From: Thermoguttaceae bacterium
Lineage (GTDB): Bacteria; Planctomycetota; Planctomycetia; Pirellulales; Thermoguttaceae
Length of the DNA: 64,000 nt
Direction of reading: 5' to 3'
Assembly (NCBI GenBank): GCA_017937485.1
Contig: JAGBDN010000020.1
Span: forward strand, 58,140-122,139
Part shown: in pieces, positions 18,930 to 27,838 of the stretch
Position numbering within the stretch: the first letter of the stretch is position 1
Layout: every line of letters starts with the position of its first letter
Notes under the pieces: model-generated
Databases searched by the model: none
What the model saw: only the letters and a program-made list of their open reading frames with translations
Told to the model about the DNA's origin: nothing
Position numbers and translations under genes: made by a program

Positions 18930-19661
18930 ATGGGCTCTTCCTTGCGAAACGTCAGTCGGGAAACGATCGAAGCGATCGTTCGTCAAATTCTTCGCGACGC
19001 CGGGGGCGCGTCGAGCGCCGAGGTCGCGAACGCGGTCGTCGGAGCGTTGGGCGGCCAAGCGCCCGAGCCGGTCGTTCAACCGCGCAAGTCGGAACTCGTC
19101 GTCAGCATCTCCGCGCGTCATATTCACCTGACCGACGCCGACGTCGAGACGCTCTTCGGCAAGGGAAAAACGCTGACGAAAATGAAGGACTTGTACCAAG
19201 ACGGCTTCTTCGCGGCGGAGGAAACGGTGATGTTGATCGGCCCGCGCAAACGAATGTTGCCGTCGGTGCGTATCTTGGGCCCGACGCGAAAAGAGTCGCA
19301 AGTTGAATTATCGTTTACCGACGCTATTTCTTTAGGAATCGACGCTCCGGTGCGCGAAAGCGGCAAACTCGACGGTTCGCCCGGGTGCGTTTTGGTCGGC
19401 CCGGCGGGCGTCGTCGAACTAAAAAAAGGCGTTATCCGAGCGGCGCGACACGTCCATATGGGCCCGGAAGACGCGGCGTATTACGGCGTCAAAGACAAAG
19501 ATATGATGAAACTGCGCGTCGAGTCGAACGACTGCTCGCTCGTCTTTGAGAACGTCTTGGTTCGCGTCGGGAAAGGAATTAAGCTCGAAGTTCACCTCGA
19601 CACCGACGAAGGGAACGCGGTCGACCTCGAACACGCGACGAAAATTGAGTTGCTGAAGTAA
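18930..19661 (+). CDS. pduL: Phosphate propanoyltransferase (PduL-type phosphotransacylase)
   Basis: BMC-lumen enzyme that converts acyl-CoA plus phosphate into acyl phosphate, recycling CoA inside the shell. The 243-residue protein starts with an amphipathic helix (about residues 5-25, NVSRETIEAIVRQIL), the typical encapsulation peptide. Two zinc-site motifs follow: SARHIHLTDAD (H64, H66) and AARHVHMGPEDA (H174, H176). The ATG at 18930 is chosen because GGAGAG precedes it and it yields a standard PduL N terminus. It is the first gene of the BMC operon. A decayed repeat of its own 3' end lies just downstream. Confidence 0.95.
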   Translation: MGSSLRNVSRETIEAIVRQILRDAGGASSAEVANAVVGALGGQAPEPVVQPRKSELVVSISARHIHLTDADVETLFGKGKTLTKMKDLYQDGFFAAEETVMLIGPRKRMLPSVRILGPTRKESQVELSFTDAISLGIDAPVRESGKLDGSPGCVLVGPAGVVELKKGVIRAARHVHMGPEDAAYYGVKDKDMMKLRVESNDCSLVFENVLVRVGKGIKLEVHLDTDEGNAVDLEHATKIELLK

Positions 19662-19675
19662 TAAACCGGCGCGAG

Positions 19676-19792
19676 TTTGAGTTGCGCTTGGTTCGCGTCG
19701 GCAAAGGGAATTAAACTCGAAGTTTGCCTCGACGCCGACGAAGGCGTCGAGGTCGACTTTGTGCGTAACGAAAATCGGATCGCTGAAATAAT
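19676..19792 (+). pseudogene. Decayed tandem copy of the pduL 3' end
   Basis: This stretch aligns with the last 119 bases of pduL (19544-19662): both contain ttggttcgcgtcgg, then aaagg(g)aattaa, ctcgaagtt, cctcgac, ccgacgaagg and ggtcgac. One extra G near 19706 shifts the frame, and two bases are lost near 19750. The translated remnant reads KGIKLEVCLDADEG against KGIKLEVHLDTDEG in PduL. It is most simply a relic of a local duplication. It is open and in frame with the next gene, so a fused read-through start cannot be fully excluded. Confidence 0.85.
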
Positions 19793-19823
19793 TCGCCGTC
19801 AAACGAAGCGAAGAGGGCAAACG

Positions 19824-20141
19824 ATGCAAGTTTTAACGATTAATGAGGTTCCGGGCGCGCAAATCGAACGAGCGTTGGGGCTGGTTCAAGGTTCGGTCGT
19901 TCAGACGAAACACGTCGGTCGCGACATTTTCGCCAATTTGAAGTCGCTCGTCGGCGGCGAACTTGCCGGATACACGGAGCTTTTGAACGAAGCGCGGCAA
20001 ATCGCGACGCGGCGAATGATCGACCGCGCGACGGAAATGGGCGCGGACGCTATCGTCGGCGTTCGGTACACGTCCGGCGAAATCGCGCAAGGCGCCTGCG
20101 AAGTTTACGCTTACGGAACGGCGGTCGCGTTGAAAAAATAA
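19824..20141 (+). CDS. YbjQ/UPF0145 family protein inside the BMC operon
   Basis: A 105-residue protein of the YbjQ (UPF0145, heavy-metal-binding-like) family. Recognisable parts are LTINEVPGAQIERALGLVQG near the start, GRDIFANLKSLVGGELAGYTELL in the middle, and ATEMGADAIVGVRYTSGE near the end. Start ATG at 19824 follows GAAGAGGG. YbjQ proteins are small oligomeric proteins of uncertain function and are not standard microcompartment components. Here the gene sits between pduL and the first shell gene, on the same strand and with the same codon use, so it is very likely co-expressed with the shell. Its role in the compartment is unknown. Confidence 0.88.
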   Translation: MQVLTINEVPGAQIERALGLVQGSVVQTKHVGRDIFANLKSLVGGELAGYTELLNEARQIATRRMIDRATEMGADAIVGVRYTSGEIAQGACEVYAYGTAVALKK

Positions 20142-20295
20142 ACGAACGTCGCGAAAAACGGCGTTAGAACGAATAACGCAACGTAAATAAAACGTTAATT
20201 AGAGAATAAACGACGGTCGCGAATCGGACGTCGGCGCTTTGACGCGGCGGCGAAAGGCGAACGACTCGACATTATTAATAATACGGAGAACTAAA

Positions 20296-20595
20296 ATGGC
20301 AAAACCGATGCAAGCGTTGGGAATTCTCGAAGGCAAGGGCTTCATCACCCTGTTTGAAGCGACGGACGCGATGATGAAAGCCGCGAACGTTGAATTTCTC
20401 GGTTGGGACAAACCGGGTAGCGGGATCGTTACCGTCTTCGTTACCGGCGACGTCGCCGCCGTCAAAGCCGCGACCGACGCCGGCGCCGCCGCCGCGTCCC
20501 GCATCGGCGAAATCACCGGCGTTCAAGTCATTCCGCGTCCGAACGGCGACGTTGAAAAAATCTTGCCGCAAATCAAAAAATCCGCCTCGAAATAG
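20296..20595 (+). CDS. BMC-H hexameric shell protein 1
   Basis: Shell protein of the Pfam BMC family (PduA/CcmK type), 99 residues. It shows the standard pattern: ALGILEGKGFITLFEATDAMMKAANVEF, a pore-loop segment DKPGSGIVT, then FVTGDVAAVKAATDAGAAAA and the ending VIPRPNGDVEKILP. Six copies would form a flat hexamer with a central pore through which small substrates pass. ATG at 20296 has GGAG seven bases upstream. It is followed at once by an apparent terminator hairpin, which may set shell protein ratios. Confidence 0.96.
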   Translation: MAKPMQALGILEGKGFITLFEATDAMMKAANVEFLGWDKPGSGIVTVFVTGDVAAVKAATDAGAAAASRIGEITGVQVIPRPNGDVEKILPQIKKSASK

Positions 20596-20598
20596 TTG

Positions 20599-26299: not shown

Positions 26300-26305
26300 T
26301 AAAAT
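26300..26305 (+). promoter_or_regulatory. -10-like element before BMC-P 3
   Basis: TAAAAT in agTAAAATAGCG, 26 bases before the ATG, followed by the strong SD AAGGAGGAA. The same TAAAATAG(C) string recurs before other genes here and is probably a secondary promoter. Confidence 0.4.
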
Positions 26306-26330
26306 AGCGAGTCGAGGCGAAGGAGGAAAA

Positions 26331-26753
26331 ATGCGAGTCGCGCAAGTCGTCGGCAAAGTCGTTTTGAGCCGCGTTCACCCGCTGTTGATCGGTTCGCAGT
26401 TTAAAATCGTCGTTCCGTTGACGTTTAACGATTTGGCGACGCCGGATCCGGTCGAAGCGGCGAACGCGACGTTGCAAGCGGAAAAAGAAGCGGGCGTCGA
26501 CGAAGAAACGGCGGCGACGAACGCGGCGAATCGGCTGTTAAATCCGGAGATTCCGCGAAAATGGGGAAACGAGGTCGTCGCTTACGACGACTGTTCGGCG
26601 GCGGTCGGCGAATGGATCGCGTTGAGCGAAGGCGCGGAGGCCGCGGCGGCGTTTCACCCGACGCAAAAACCGGTCGACGCGTTTTGCGGGGCGATTCTCG
26701 ACGCGCTCGTCGTCGACGCGGAGGTCGTCGCGGCGTTGGCGGCGAAAAAGTAA
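26331..26753 (+). CDS. BMC-P pentameric shell protein 3 with an insertion
   Basis: A 140-residue EutN/CcmL relative. The N terminus (VAQVVGKVVLSRVHPLLIGSQF then IVVPL) and the later VVAYDDCSAAVGEWIALSEG with VDAFCGAILDALVV match the fold. About 40 extra residues (DLATPDPVEAANATLQAEK through RKWGN) are inserted between the first strands and the core. Usual BMC-P proteins have 80-100 residues. The insertion is Ala/Glu-rich and probably helical, and would sit on one face of the pentamer. Preceded by AAGGAGGAAAA. Confidence 0.88.
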   Translation: MRVAQVVGKVVLSRVHPLLIGSQFKIVVPLTFNDLATPDPVEAANATLQAEKEAGVDEETAATNAANRLLNPEIPRKWGNEVVAYDDCSAAVGEWIALSEGAEAAAAFHPTQKPVDAFCGAILDALVVDAEVVAALAAKK

Positions 26754-26870
26754 AGCGTCGGCGCGTTAAAATTCAACGTAAAAAACGGTTGCGCGGGTCG
26801 CGGCGACTTTAAAAAAGCGGAAAACGCGAAAAAGTCGATAAAACGGAAGAGAATAAATTTATTTTAGCGG

Positions 26871-26876
26871 TATAAT
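26871..26876 (+). promoter_or_regulatory. -10 element before the aldolase gene
   Basis: TATAAT in gcggTATAATTTG, 72 bases before the aldolase ATG, with no clear -35. It suggests that the aldolase can be expressed apart from the rest of the operon. Confidence 0.45.
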
Positions 26877-26947
26877 TTGACTAACGCGAACAACGGGGAC
26901 GGGCCGCGAGGCCGCGTTCGGGGCGTTTAAAAGCAAAAGGAACCGAT

Positions 26948-27838
26948 ATGCTCAATTTGCATCAAGTTAAAGAAGAAATCTGCGACATGGGTCGCCGGTT
27001 GTACAACAAAGGTTTCGCGGCGGCGAACGACGGCAACATCAGCTACCGCATCGACGAAAACCGCGTCGTCTGCACGCCGACGCAAATCTGCAAAGGCTTC
27101 ATGAAACCGGAAGACCTCTGCATCGTCGATATGGACGGAAACCAAATCGCCGGGACGCGCAAACGCACCAGCGAAATCTTCCTTCACCTGACGATTATGA
27201 AGGAACGTCCGGAAGTGAAGTCGGTTCTGCACTGCCATCCGCCTTACGCGACCGCGTTCGGCGTCGCGAAAGAAGCGATTCCGCAATGCGTTCTTCCGGA
27301 AGTCGACATCTATATGGGCGACGTTCCGATCGCGAAGTACGCCATTCCGGGCGGTCAAGAATTCGCCGACACCATTTTGCCGTTCATTCACAAGTCGGAC
27401 ATTATCGTTTTGGCGAACCACGGCACCGTCAGCTTGGGCCCGACCGTCGAAAAGGCGTACTGGCTGACCGAACTCCTCGACGCGTACTGCCGTATTCTCT
27501 TGATCTCCCGCGACTTGGGCAAGACGAGCTACTTCACGCGCGAAGAAGCGGAAGACCTCCTCCAACTCAAGACGAAGTGGGGCATCAACGACCCGCGTAT
27601 GAAGGTCGAAAACTGCGAACTTTGCGCGAACGATATGTTCCGCGACAGCTGGAAAGAAACCGGCGTCGGGCACCGCGCGTTCGACCCGCCGCGCTTCCGT
27701 CGCAACGACGAAGAGCCGTGCGGCTGCGCGTCGAACCCGATTCTGAATAACAACGTCGAACTCGGCAAAGACCCGCAAACCGAAGCGCTCGTTAAGGCGA
27801 TCGCCGACCGCGTGATGGAAATGATGAACAAACGTTAA
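26948..27838 (+). CDS. Class II aldolase, L-fuculose/rhamnulose-1-phosphate type, BMC-targeted
   Basis: Zinc aldolase expected to split fuculose-1-phosphate or rhamnulose-1-phosphate into dihydroxyacetone phosphate and lactaldehyde, feeding the compartment. Motifs: GFAAANDGNISYR, catalytic E76 in KRTSEIFLH, zinc ligands H95 and H97 in VLHCHPPYA, and H158 in LANHGT. Beyond the usual 215 residues there is a Cys-containing extension (CELCANDMF, EPCGCASNP) and a final amphipathic helix, TEALVKAIADRVMEMMNKR, typical of a C-terminal encapsulation peptide. The 296-residue length fits PVM-locus aldolases. It is the last gene of the operon and is followed by a strong terminator. Confidence 0.93.
   Translation: MLNLHQVKEEICDMGRRLYNKGFAAANDGNISYRIDENRVVCTPTQICKGFMKPEDLCIVDMDGNQIAGTRKRTSEIFLHLTIMKERPEVKSVLHCHPPYATAFGVAKEAIPQCVLPEVDIYMGDVPIAKYAIPGGQEFADTILPFIHKSDIIVLANHGTVSLGPTVEKAYWLTELLDAYCRILLISRDLGKTSYFTREEAEDLLQLKTKWGINDPRMKVENCELCANDMFRDSWKETGVGHRAFDPPRFRRNDEEPCGCASNPILNNNVELGKDPQTEALVKAIADRVMEMMNKR

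Follow-up and report, generated by a model that had tools for sequence, protein, structure and literature searches.

The window analyzed here, a stretch of 64,000 nucleotides on one contig (JAGBDN010000020.1 of GenBank assembly GCA_017937485.1; C44 in our numbering) of a Thermoguttaceae genome of 4.37 Mb that is 91% complete, carried a bacterial microcompartment (BMC) operon of 12 co-directional genes between 18930 and 27838. The genes encoded, in order, PduL, a YbjQ-family protein, two BMC-H shell proteins, an acetate kinase (AckA), a BMC-P vertex protein, an acylating aldehyde dehydrogenase (ALDH), a membrane protein, a second BMC-P protein, an RpiB-like protein, a third BMC-P protein, and a class II aldolase (Table 1). 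The initial annotation of this DNA had described a microcompartment operon of the Planctomycetes and Verrucomicrobia (PVM) type, and all of the genes that it named were present in one direction. The presence of a class II aldolase in a shell locus together with ALDH, PduL, and acetate kinase supported the assignment to the PVM type. Fuculose-phosphate aldolases were among the best PDB matches of the window aldolase; the genome also encoded a rhamnose isomerase (660.6 bits), and its match to the fucose isomerase domain was weak. The locus had three BMC-P and two BMC-H genes. The third BMC-P protein scored 37.5 bits as CcmL-like, under the cut-off of the model, and relatives had a BMC-P gene at the same position. 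For the ALDH, an ATG at 22799 was open too, and the start at 22913 yielded an N-terminus resembling an encapsulation peptide (EP).

Table 1. Features of the operon and its 5' flank, in window positions
Feature	Position	Strand	Evidence
Sigma-70-like promoter candidate, 5' of pduL	18677..18704	+	consensus match only, 10/12 matches
PduL phosphotransacylase	18930..19661	+	PF06130 252 bits; EP-type window at residue 12, EP-like N-terminal helix
YbjQ-family protein (UPF0145)	19824..20141	+	PF01906 126 bits vs cut-off 23; PDB 2gtc E 1.6e-12
BMC-H shell protein 1	20296..20595	+	PF00936 90.6 bits
BMC-H shell protein 2	20690..20959	+	PF00936 88.5 bits
Acetate/propionate-family kinase (AckA)	21158..22351	+	PF00871 335.5 bits; TIGR00016 above cut-off
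BMC-P vertex protein 1	22376..22681	+	PF03319 94.7 bits
Acylating aldehyde dehydrogenase (ALDH)	22913..24367	+	PRK15398 601 bits (NCBIfam search); PDB 5jfl E 3.2e-117
SemiSWEET/PQ-loop-like membrane protein	24511..25038	+	three long predicted helices, Arg/Ser-rich tail
BMC-P vertex protein 2	25035..25322	+	PF03319 60.9 bits
RpiB-like predicted pseudoenzyme	25325..26260	+	EP-like helix 8-20, EutQ-N-like module ~81-130, linker, RpiB fold ~186-311
BMC-P vertex protein 3	26331..26753	+	NCBIfam only: CcmL/EutN-like, E 2.3e-9 and 6.2e-6, below curated cut-offs
Class II (fuculose/rhamnulose-phosphate-type) aldolase, signature enzyme	26948..27838	+	NCBIfam FucA-like matches; PDB 1fua E 6.3e-13

In the available text of the 2014 microcompartment taxonomy (Axen 2014, PMC4207490), NAD recycling in PVM compartments is predicted to be the task of a lactate/malate dehydrogenase. 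The window differed from this type in that no NADH-recycling dehydrogenase was found among the 12 operon genes or in the 1.5 kb that follow the aldolase on its 3' side, and in that the genome had no PVM-type malate dehydrogenase (MDH), which was called at a query match of E 3.5e-68 or better. The best match of the genome to the MDH query had an E value of 2.9e-43, and its sole Ldh_1_C gene was a malate dehydrogenase on another contig. The window's order was represented by a sample of 146 genomes, 24 of its own family (Thermoguttaceae) and 122 others, of which 133 bore the aldolase (24 of the own family and 109 of other families). Strong matches to the PVM-type MDH occurred in 89 of the 146 genomes and in 87 of the 109 aldolase-bearing genomes of other families, and in 84 of the 133, all from other families, the gene came next to the aldolase on its 3' side. 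None of the 24 own-family genomes contained it; 21 gave only weaker matches (36–40% identity among those listed) and three gave none. The lack of an obvious NADH-recycling dehydrogenase, which had been remarked on for the operon, therefore held at the locus and extended to 24 of 24 family genomes, most of which had PduS and PduT instead. The window's genome likewise departed from the known PVM type in encoding PduS and PduT away from the operon, and its locus in adding the membrane protein and YbjQ.

The genome encoded one tandem BMC-domain protein (contig C39), and no BMC-domain gene was found in it besides this one and the two BMC-H genes. The best solved relatives of the protein were PduT shell proteins; it matched PDB 3pac with an E value of 4.6e-36, the cluster cysteine being aligned. 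A cysteine motif, TIC[SAP]GK, was present in 22 of 23 PduT-type sequences, that of the window's genome being TICSGKY and the exception coming from genome G134. This motif fits the PduT pore motif C-P/S/A-G-K/R/S-Y/F given in the accessible part of PMC6325248. The PduT-type protein would bind a [4Fe-4S] cluster and sit in the PVM shell, judging from its sequence. At E<=1e-20, PduT-type proteins were detected in 22 of 24 own-family genomes and in 1 of 122 others. The sole Complex1_51K protein of the window's genome (contig C113) was a PduS homologue, in which the four domains listed for PduS (Complex1_51K, SLBB, Fer4_17, and RnfC_N) were all over the cut-off and in the listed order. All eight cysteines of the two four-cysteine motifs were conserved in 22 of 22 PduS homologues, and in the 14 of these 22 with an alignment spanning GxGxxG, that motif was seen too. 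An annotated pduS was among the best plasmid matches, with 42% identity. At E<1e-100, the PduS homologue was found in 21 of 24 own-family genomes and in 1 of 122 others (G067); weak matches in G110, G015, G053, G129, and G140, with E values of 1e-36 to 1e-42, were not counted. G067, the single outsider with both the PduT type and the PduS homologue, was likewise without the PVM-type MDH. Among the 133 aldolase-bearing genomes, PduT and the PVM-type MDH occurred together in 0, PduT only in 23, MDH only in 87, and neither in 23.

Of the 22 genomes that had both genes, 18 had the two matches close together on one strand, that of pduS ending 27–571 nt ahead of that of pduT, and in two relatives pduT lay near the PVM locus: in G094, the pduS-pduT pair preceded the PVM pduL by ~3.7 kb in the same orientation, with other open reading frames (ORFs) between, and in G138 (locus L022) pduT started 35 nt past the stop of the PVM aldolase. 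In its domain set, eight cluster cysteines, PduT cysteine motif, and adjacency, the pair thus resembled PduS-PduT of propanediol-utilization (PDU) and glycyl radical enzyme-associated microcompartments (GRM), as far as these are described in the available text of PMC2982820 and PMC6325248, whereas here it accompanied a PVM compartment whose operon was without B12 or glycyl-radical enzymes, and its genes were mostly away from the main locus. The genus relative G134 also carried a PduT-type protein (L160:8056-8586; G134:C1:112055-112588) with a C-terminal extension and with the cluster cysteine lost. In the literature that was searched, no title or abstract opening concerned PduS or PduT for the PVM compartment; the gene table of Erbilgin 2014, reportedly the paper that characterized the PVM compartment, lay outside this comparison and may already describe the RpiB position. 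Neither 'PduS' nor 'PduT' occurs in the main text of PMC8217296, the part of that paper that was covered.

From these data, we consider it rather probable that the PVM compartment makes lactate from rhamnulose- or fuculose-phosphate and that, in the family without a PVM-type MDH, PduS and PduT encoded elsewhere re-oxidize NADH and export the electrons. In the scheme published for PVM compartments (PMC8857213, available part), the aldolase forms lactaldehyde in the shell, ALDH converts it to lactyl-CoA, and PduL and AckA lead through lactyl phosphate to lactate. In the window's compartment, the class II aldolase would split rhamnulose- or fuculose-phosphate with release of lactaldehyde inside the shell, ALDH would turn the lactaldehyde into lactyl-CoA and NADH, and PduL and then AckA would convert lactyl-CoA to lactyl phosphate and lactate. 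The AckA step forms ATP. The PduS of the pdu system is described as a flavoprotein that oxidizes NADH and binds PduT (PMC2982820, in part), and the passage of electrons by way of PduT is a proposal made there and in the portion of PMC6325248 that was available. In the window's family, the PduS homologue would re-oxidize the NADH and the PduT-type shell protein would pass the electrons out through the shell, the pair taking over NAD recycling where the PVM-type MDH is absent. That PduS and PduT act in the PVM compartment, that the electrons flow outward, and that they reach a cytosolic acceptor, we infer; a PduS-PduT electron exit is most likely what replaced the dehydrogenase in this family.

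A number of observations weigh against this interpretation. PDB 3n79, also labelled PduT, carries serine at the cysteine position, and the NCBIfam PduT model gave 114 bits, far below its cut-off of 250. The best NCBIfam name of the PduS homologue was rnfC, at 232 bits just short of the 246-bit cut-off, and RnfC proteins headed its PDB matches. The exclusion between PduT and MDH gave a Fisher p of 2.3e-13, a value that overstates the independence of the genomes, which are essentially one clade plus G067, and the association rests on about two lineages. In metagenome-assembled genomes (MAGs), the absence of a gene can be an assembly gap. The 23 aldolase-bearing genomes with neither module, some of which had an RpiB-like gene beside the aldolase (G002, G057, and G074), indicated that a PVM locus can exist without PduT and without the PVM-type MDH. 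G134, which is ~90% complete, kept the compartment with no PduS match and with its PduT cysteine lost, so that the PduS-PduT module is not strictly needed. The window's own genome had pduS apart from pduT: these two genes and the operon were spread over three different contigs, with no local tie. Finally, genes for the malate dehydrogenase and an iron alcohol dehydrogenase stood side by side and divergently on contig C106 (L091:8914-11640), and these two enzymes could recycle the NADH.

The last three observations would fit an ordinary PVM compartment, in which NADH leaves or is recycled by the cytosolic malate dehydrogenase or by the iron alcohol dehydrogenase acting on lactaldehyde to give 1,2-propanediol, while PduS and PduT serve elsewhere. 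The best NCBIfam match of the iron enzyme was lactaldehyde reductase, at 180 bits and thus below the cut-off of 523 bits, which is in keeping with such a role. However, PduT is a shell protein, and the only other BMC-domain genes of the genome are the BMC-H pair of the PVM operon; the PduS-PduT module also tracked the absence of the PVM-type MDH, and no EP-like N-terminus was seen on the iron enzyme on inspection by eye. We therefore regard cytosolic recycling as possible and rather unlikely. The same module might instead carry electrons inward, or serve cofactor or corrin reduction, and not export electrons from NADH. The available text of PMC2982820 describes the pdu PduS as a corrin reductase, and for GRM compartments that of PMC6325248 mentions the proposal of a luminal role. 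On the other hand, none of the 12 operon genes encoded a B12 or radical enzyme, and the module never occurred together with the PVM-type MDH (0 of 133), which makes an inward or corrin-reducing role improbable.

The window aldolase was 98–100% identical to those of five Thermoguttaceae-labelled MAGs from deer, buffalo, and goat guts, and the source planctomycete likely comes from an animal gut. From the gut source of these nearest relatives, the host of the window presumably lives without oxygen. A low-oxygen setting would suit the PduS-PduT exit, because the clusters of PduS and PduT are described as oxygen-sensitive (PMC2982820 and PMC6325248, each in its available part).

The distribution of the three additional genes of the operon was examined in related loci. 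An aldolase scan with one genome per species (84,980 species) gave 89 relatives, and the best 80 of the 89 (79 loci) were kept; counts refer to 80 aldolase-bearing loci including the window, and each gene was scored only where its interval was present (testable loci). The initial annotation had called the YbjQ, membrane, and RpiB-like proteins non-standard and unexplained members. This stood for YbjQ, which was absent from most related loci, and did not stand for the other two, as the RpiB-like gene was present in most planctomycete loci and the membrane protein in those of the gut lineage. Of 49 testable planctomycete loci, 45 had the RpiB-like gene (a contig end cut six of these), and of 21 testable verrucomicrobial-type loci 0 had it. 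In the order-level sample, its profile matched 110 of the 146 genomes at E<=1e-6; of the 133 genomes bearing the aldolase, 104 had a match on the aldolase strand, <2.5 kb 5' of that gene. The gene is thus a regular member of planctomycete loci and therefore part of the system. At the junction with BMC-P2, an in-frame RpiB-like start was placed −8 to +2 nt from the BMC-P2 stop in 27 of 39 loci checked.

The RpiB-like protein shares the fold of residues 186–311 with RpiB/LacAB isomerases, including the RpiB of sugar phosphate utilization (SPU) compartments. It differs from them in that the active-site motif is lost and that an EP-like helix and an EutQ-N-like module are added. Its degeneracy, which had been pointed out from the window sequence, was borne out family-wide: the glycine-rich loop was replaced, and the cysteine, which we take to be the catalytic residue of RpiB, was replaced by a near-invariant threonine. 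These replacements argue against a working sugar-phosphate isomerase of the pathway, which the retained fold might otherwise bring to mind; in addition, short forms retained only the C-terminal part (L052 and L058), loci L054 and L057 were without the gene, and the window's genome had three PF02502 matches better than that of the RpiB-like protein. We consider such an isomerase very improbable. The short, partial, or absent RpiB-like genes of the MDH-bearing planctomycete loci L047, L053, L054, L057, and L058 had suggested that the protein replaces the dehydrogenase; this was rejected, as order-wide searches found genomes such as G013 and G062 with both the RpiB-like protein and MDH. Locus L046 (6114-6434) had a SemiSWEET-like protein and no RpiB-like gene between the BMC-P genes.

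The N-terminus of the RpiB-like family was compared with profiles trained on the encapsulation peptides of PduL and ALDH. With a reduced-alphabet profile, 62 of 66 members had their best EP window starting no later than residue 35, and 60 of 66 had p<0.05 inside the first 40 residues, the members being related so that the trials were not independent; the window's own RpiB-like protein was weak (110 of 1000 shuffles as good). Among the first 45 hits of each control family, N-termini with p<0.05 numbered 2 for AckA, 0 for BMC-P1, 0 for BMC-H1, 1 for BMC-P3, and 0 for the aldolase, and C-termini 2, 0, 0, 6, and 42, respectively. The aldolase C-terminus thus had an EP-like helix in 42 of 45 aldolases, the window aldolase alone being weak (135 of 1000 shuffles as good). 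Against an encapsulation peptide on the RpiB-like protein, a profile of the ALDH and PduL peptides in the full amino-acid alphabet missed its N-terminus (337 and 292 of 500 shuffles as good), which only the reduced-alphabet version found.

For the middle module of the RpiB-like protein, Pfam gave nothing credible, NCBIfam gave one sub-threshold match, and no direct match to EutQ was found. The likeness to the N-terminal region of EutQ came through the aldolases of verrucomicrobial-type PVM loci (L060–L082), whose ORFs had an N-terminal extension of ~80–105 residues with an EutQ-N-like motif; the window aldolase was without it. In the two verrucomicrobial aldolases tested, the extension matched EutQ residues 1–66 and 1–59 with E values of 3.6e-4 and 4e-3, under the whole-protein cut-off, and it was homologous to the RpiB-like middle module (hhalign 96.4%). 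We predict that the RpiB-like protein is cargo without a catalytic function. Since it has an EP-like helix and a middle module whose homologue is fused to the verrucomicrobial aldolase, it most likely joins the aldolase and the shell and would hold them together.

The membrane protein was present in 22 of 63 testable loci; it is a lineage-specific member found in the gut lineage, and from its presence in gut-lineage loci it belongs to the system. A profile of 43 sequences was built from the relatives without a tail (L021, L022, L024, and L046) and from homologues of the first of these. Up to E 1 it matched only PDB 4x5m (E 7.4e-4) and 4rng, which bears the label MtN3/saliva family (E 0.34); we take both to be SemiSWEETs. 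PQ-loop was matched by 29 of the 43 members at E<=0.05, and a few members gave weak matches to other families. When the tails were kept, an ion-channel stretch of 7dtd (E 0.040) was level with 4x5m (E 0.041). The window protein itself had no Pfam match to PQ-loop, and Foldseek gave no significant match for its AlphaFold2 model, which was weak (predicted local distance difference test score of 59). The tails of the relatives were rich in Arg, Ser, and His, and several ended in an acidic stretch. Three long predicted helices and the matches of the tail-less relatives connect the window protein with SemiSWEET/PQ-loop transporters, from which it differs by its divergence and its Arg/Ser tail. By sequence it appears to be a diverged member of a SemiSWEET-like family, its likeliest predicted function being that of a carrier of substrate or product, and the tail may help to position the compartment.

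YbjQ was found in 2 of 43 testable loci. In the genus it occurred in 7 of 20 genomes with ~90–100% identity, each of the 7 copies lying between pduL and the first BMC-H gene. Among the 20, only 4 reached 90% completeness, and 2 of those carried YbjQ. It is probably a recent, dispensable addition. Between pduL and ybjQ, positions 19669-19757 held a decayed partial tandem copy of the pduL 3' end (19538-19625; 77–83% identical), and L154 held a similar partial copy. The membrane-protein, BMC-P2, and RpiB-like genes were packed, with a 4-nt overlap between the membrane-protein stop and the BMC-P2 ATG and with 2 nt from the BMC-P2 stop to the ATG of the RpiB-like gene. Promoter-like sites in the region numbered 6, with 2.3 expected. 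No DeoR-family regulator was recognized by eye among the neighbouring ORFs, of which no family search was made. A CsrA-like short ORF, judged by eye from its translation, was present at 29901-30167, ~2 kb 3' of the operon.

Taken as a whole, the proposal that the fucose/rhamnose compartment of this family swapped a luminal NAD-recycling dehydrogenase for an exit to the cytosol through PduS and an iron-sulfur PduT tile, with a dead, EP-bearing RpiB scaffolding the aldolase core, stands in our judgment at about even chances. Electron export through PduT is a published proposal that bears on how NADH is balanced behind the closed wall of a compartment. The exchange of a dehydrogenase for PduS-PduT in nature, in a compartment that is conserved in other respects and whose operon has no B12 or radical enzyme to complicate the interpretation, would make the idea of electron export directly testable, and the conserved, apparently dead RpiB-like enzyme can be named as a likely scaffold of planctomycete compartments.

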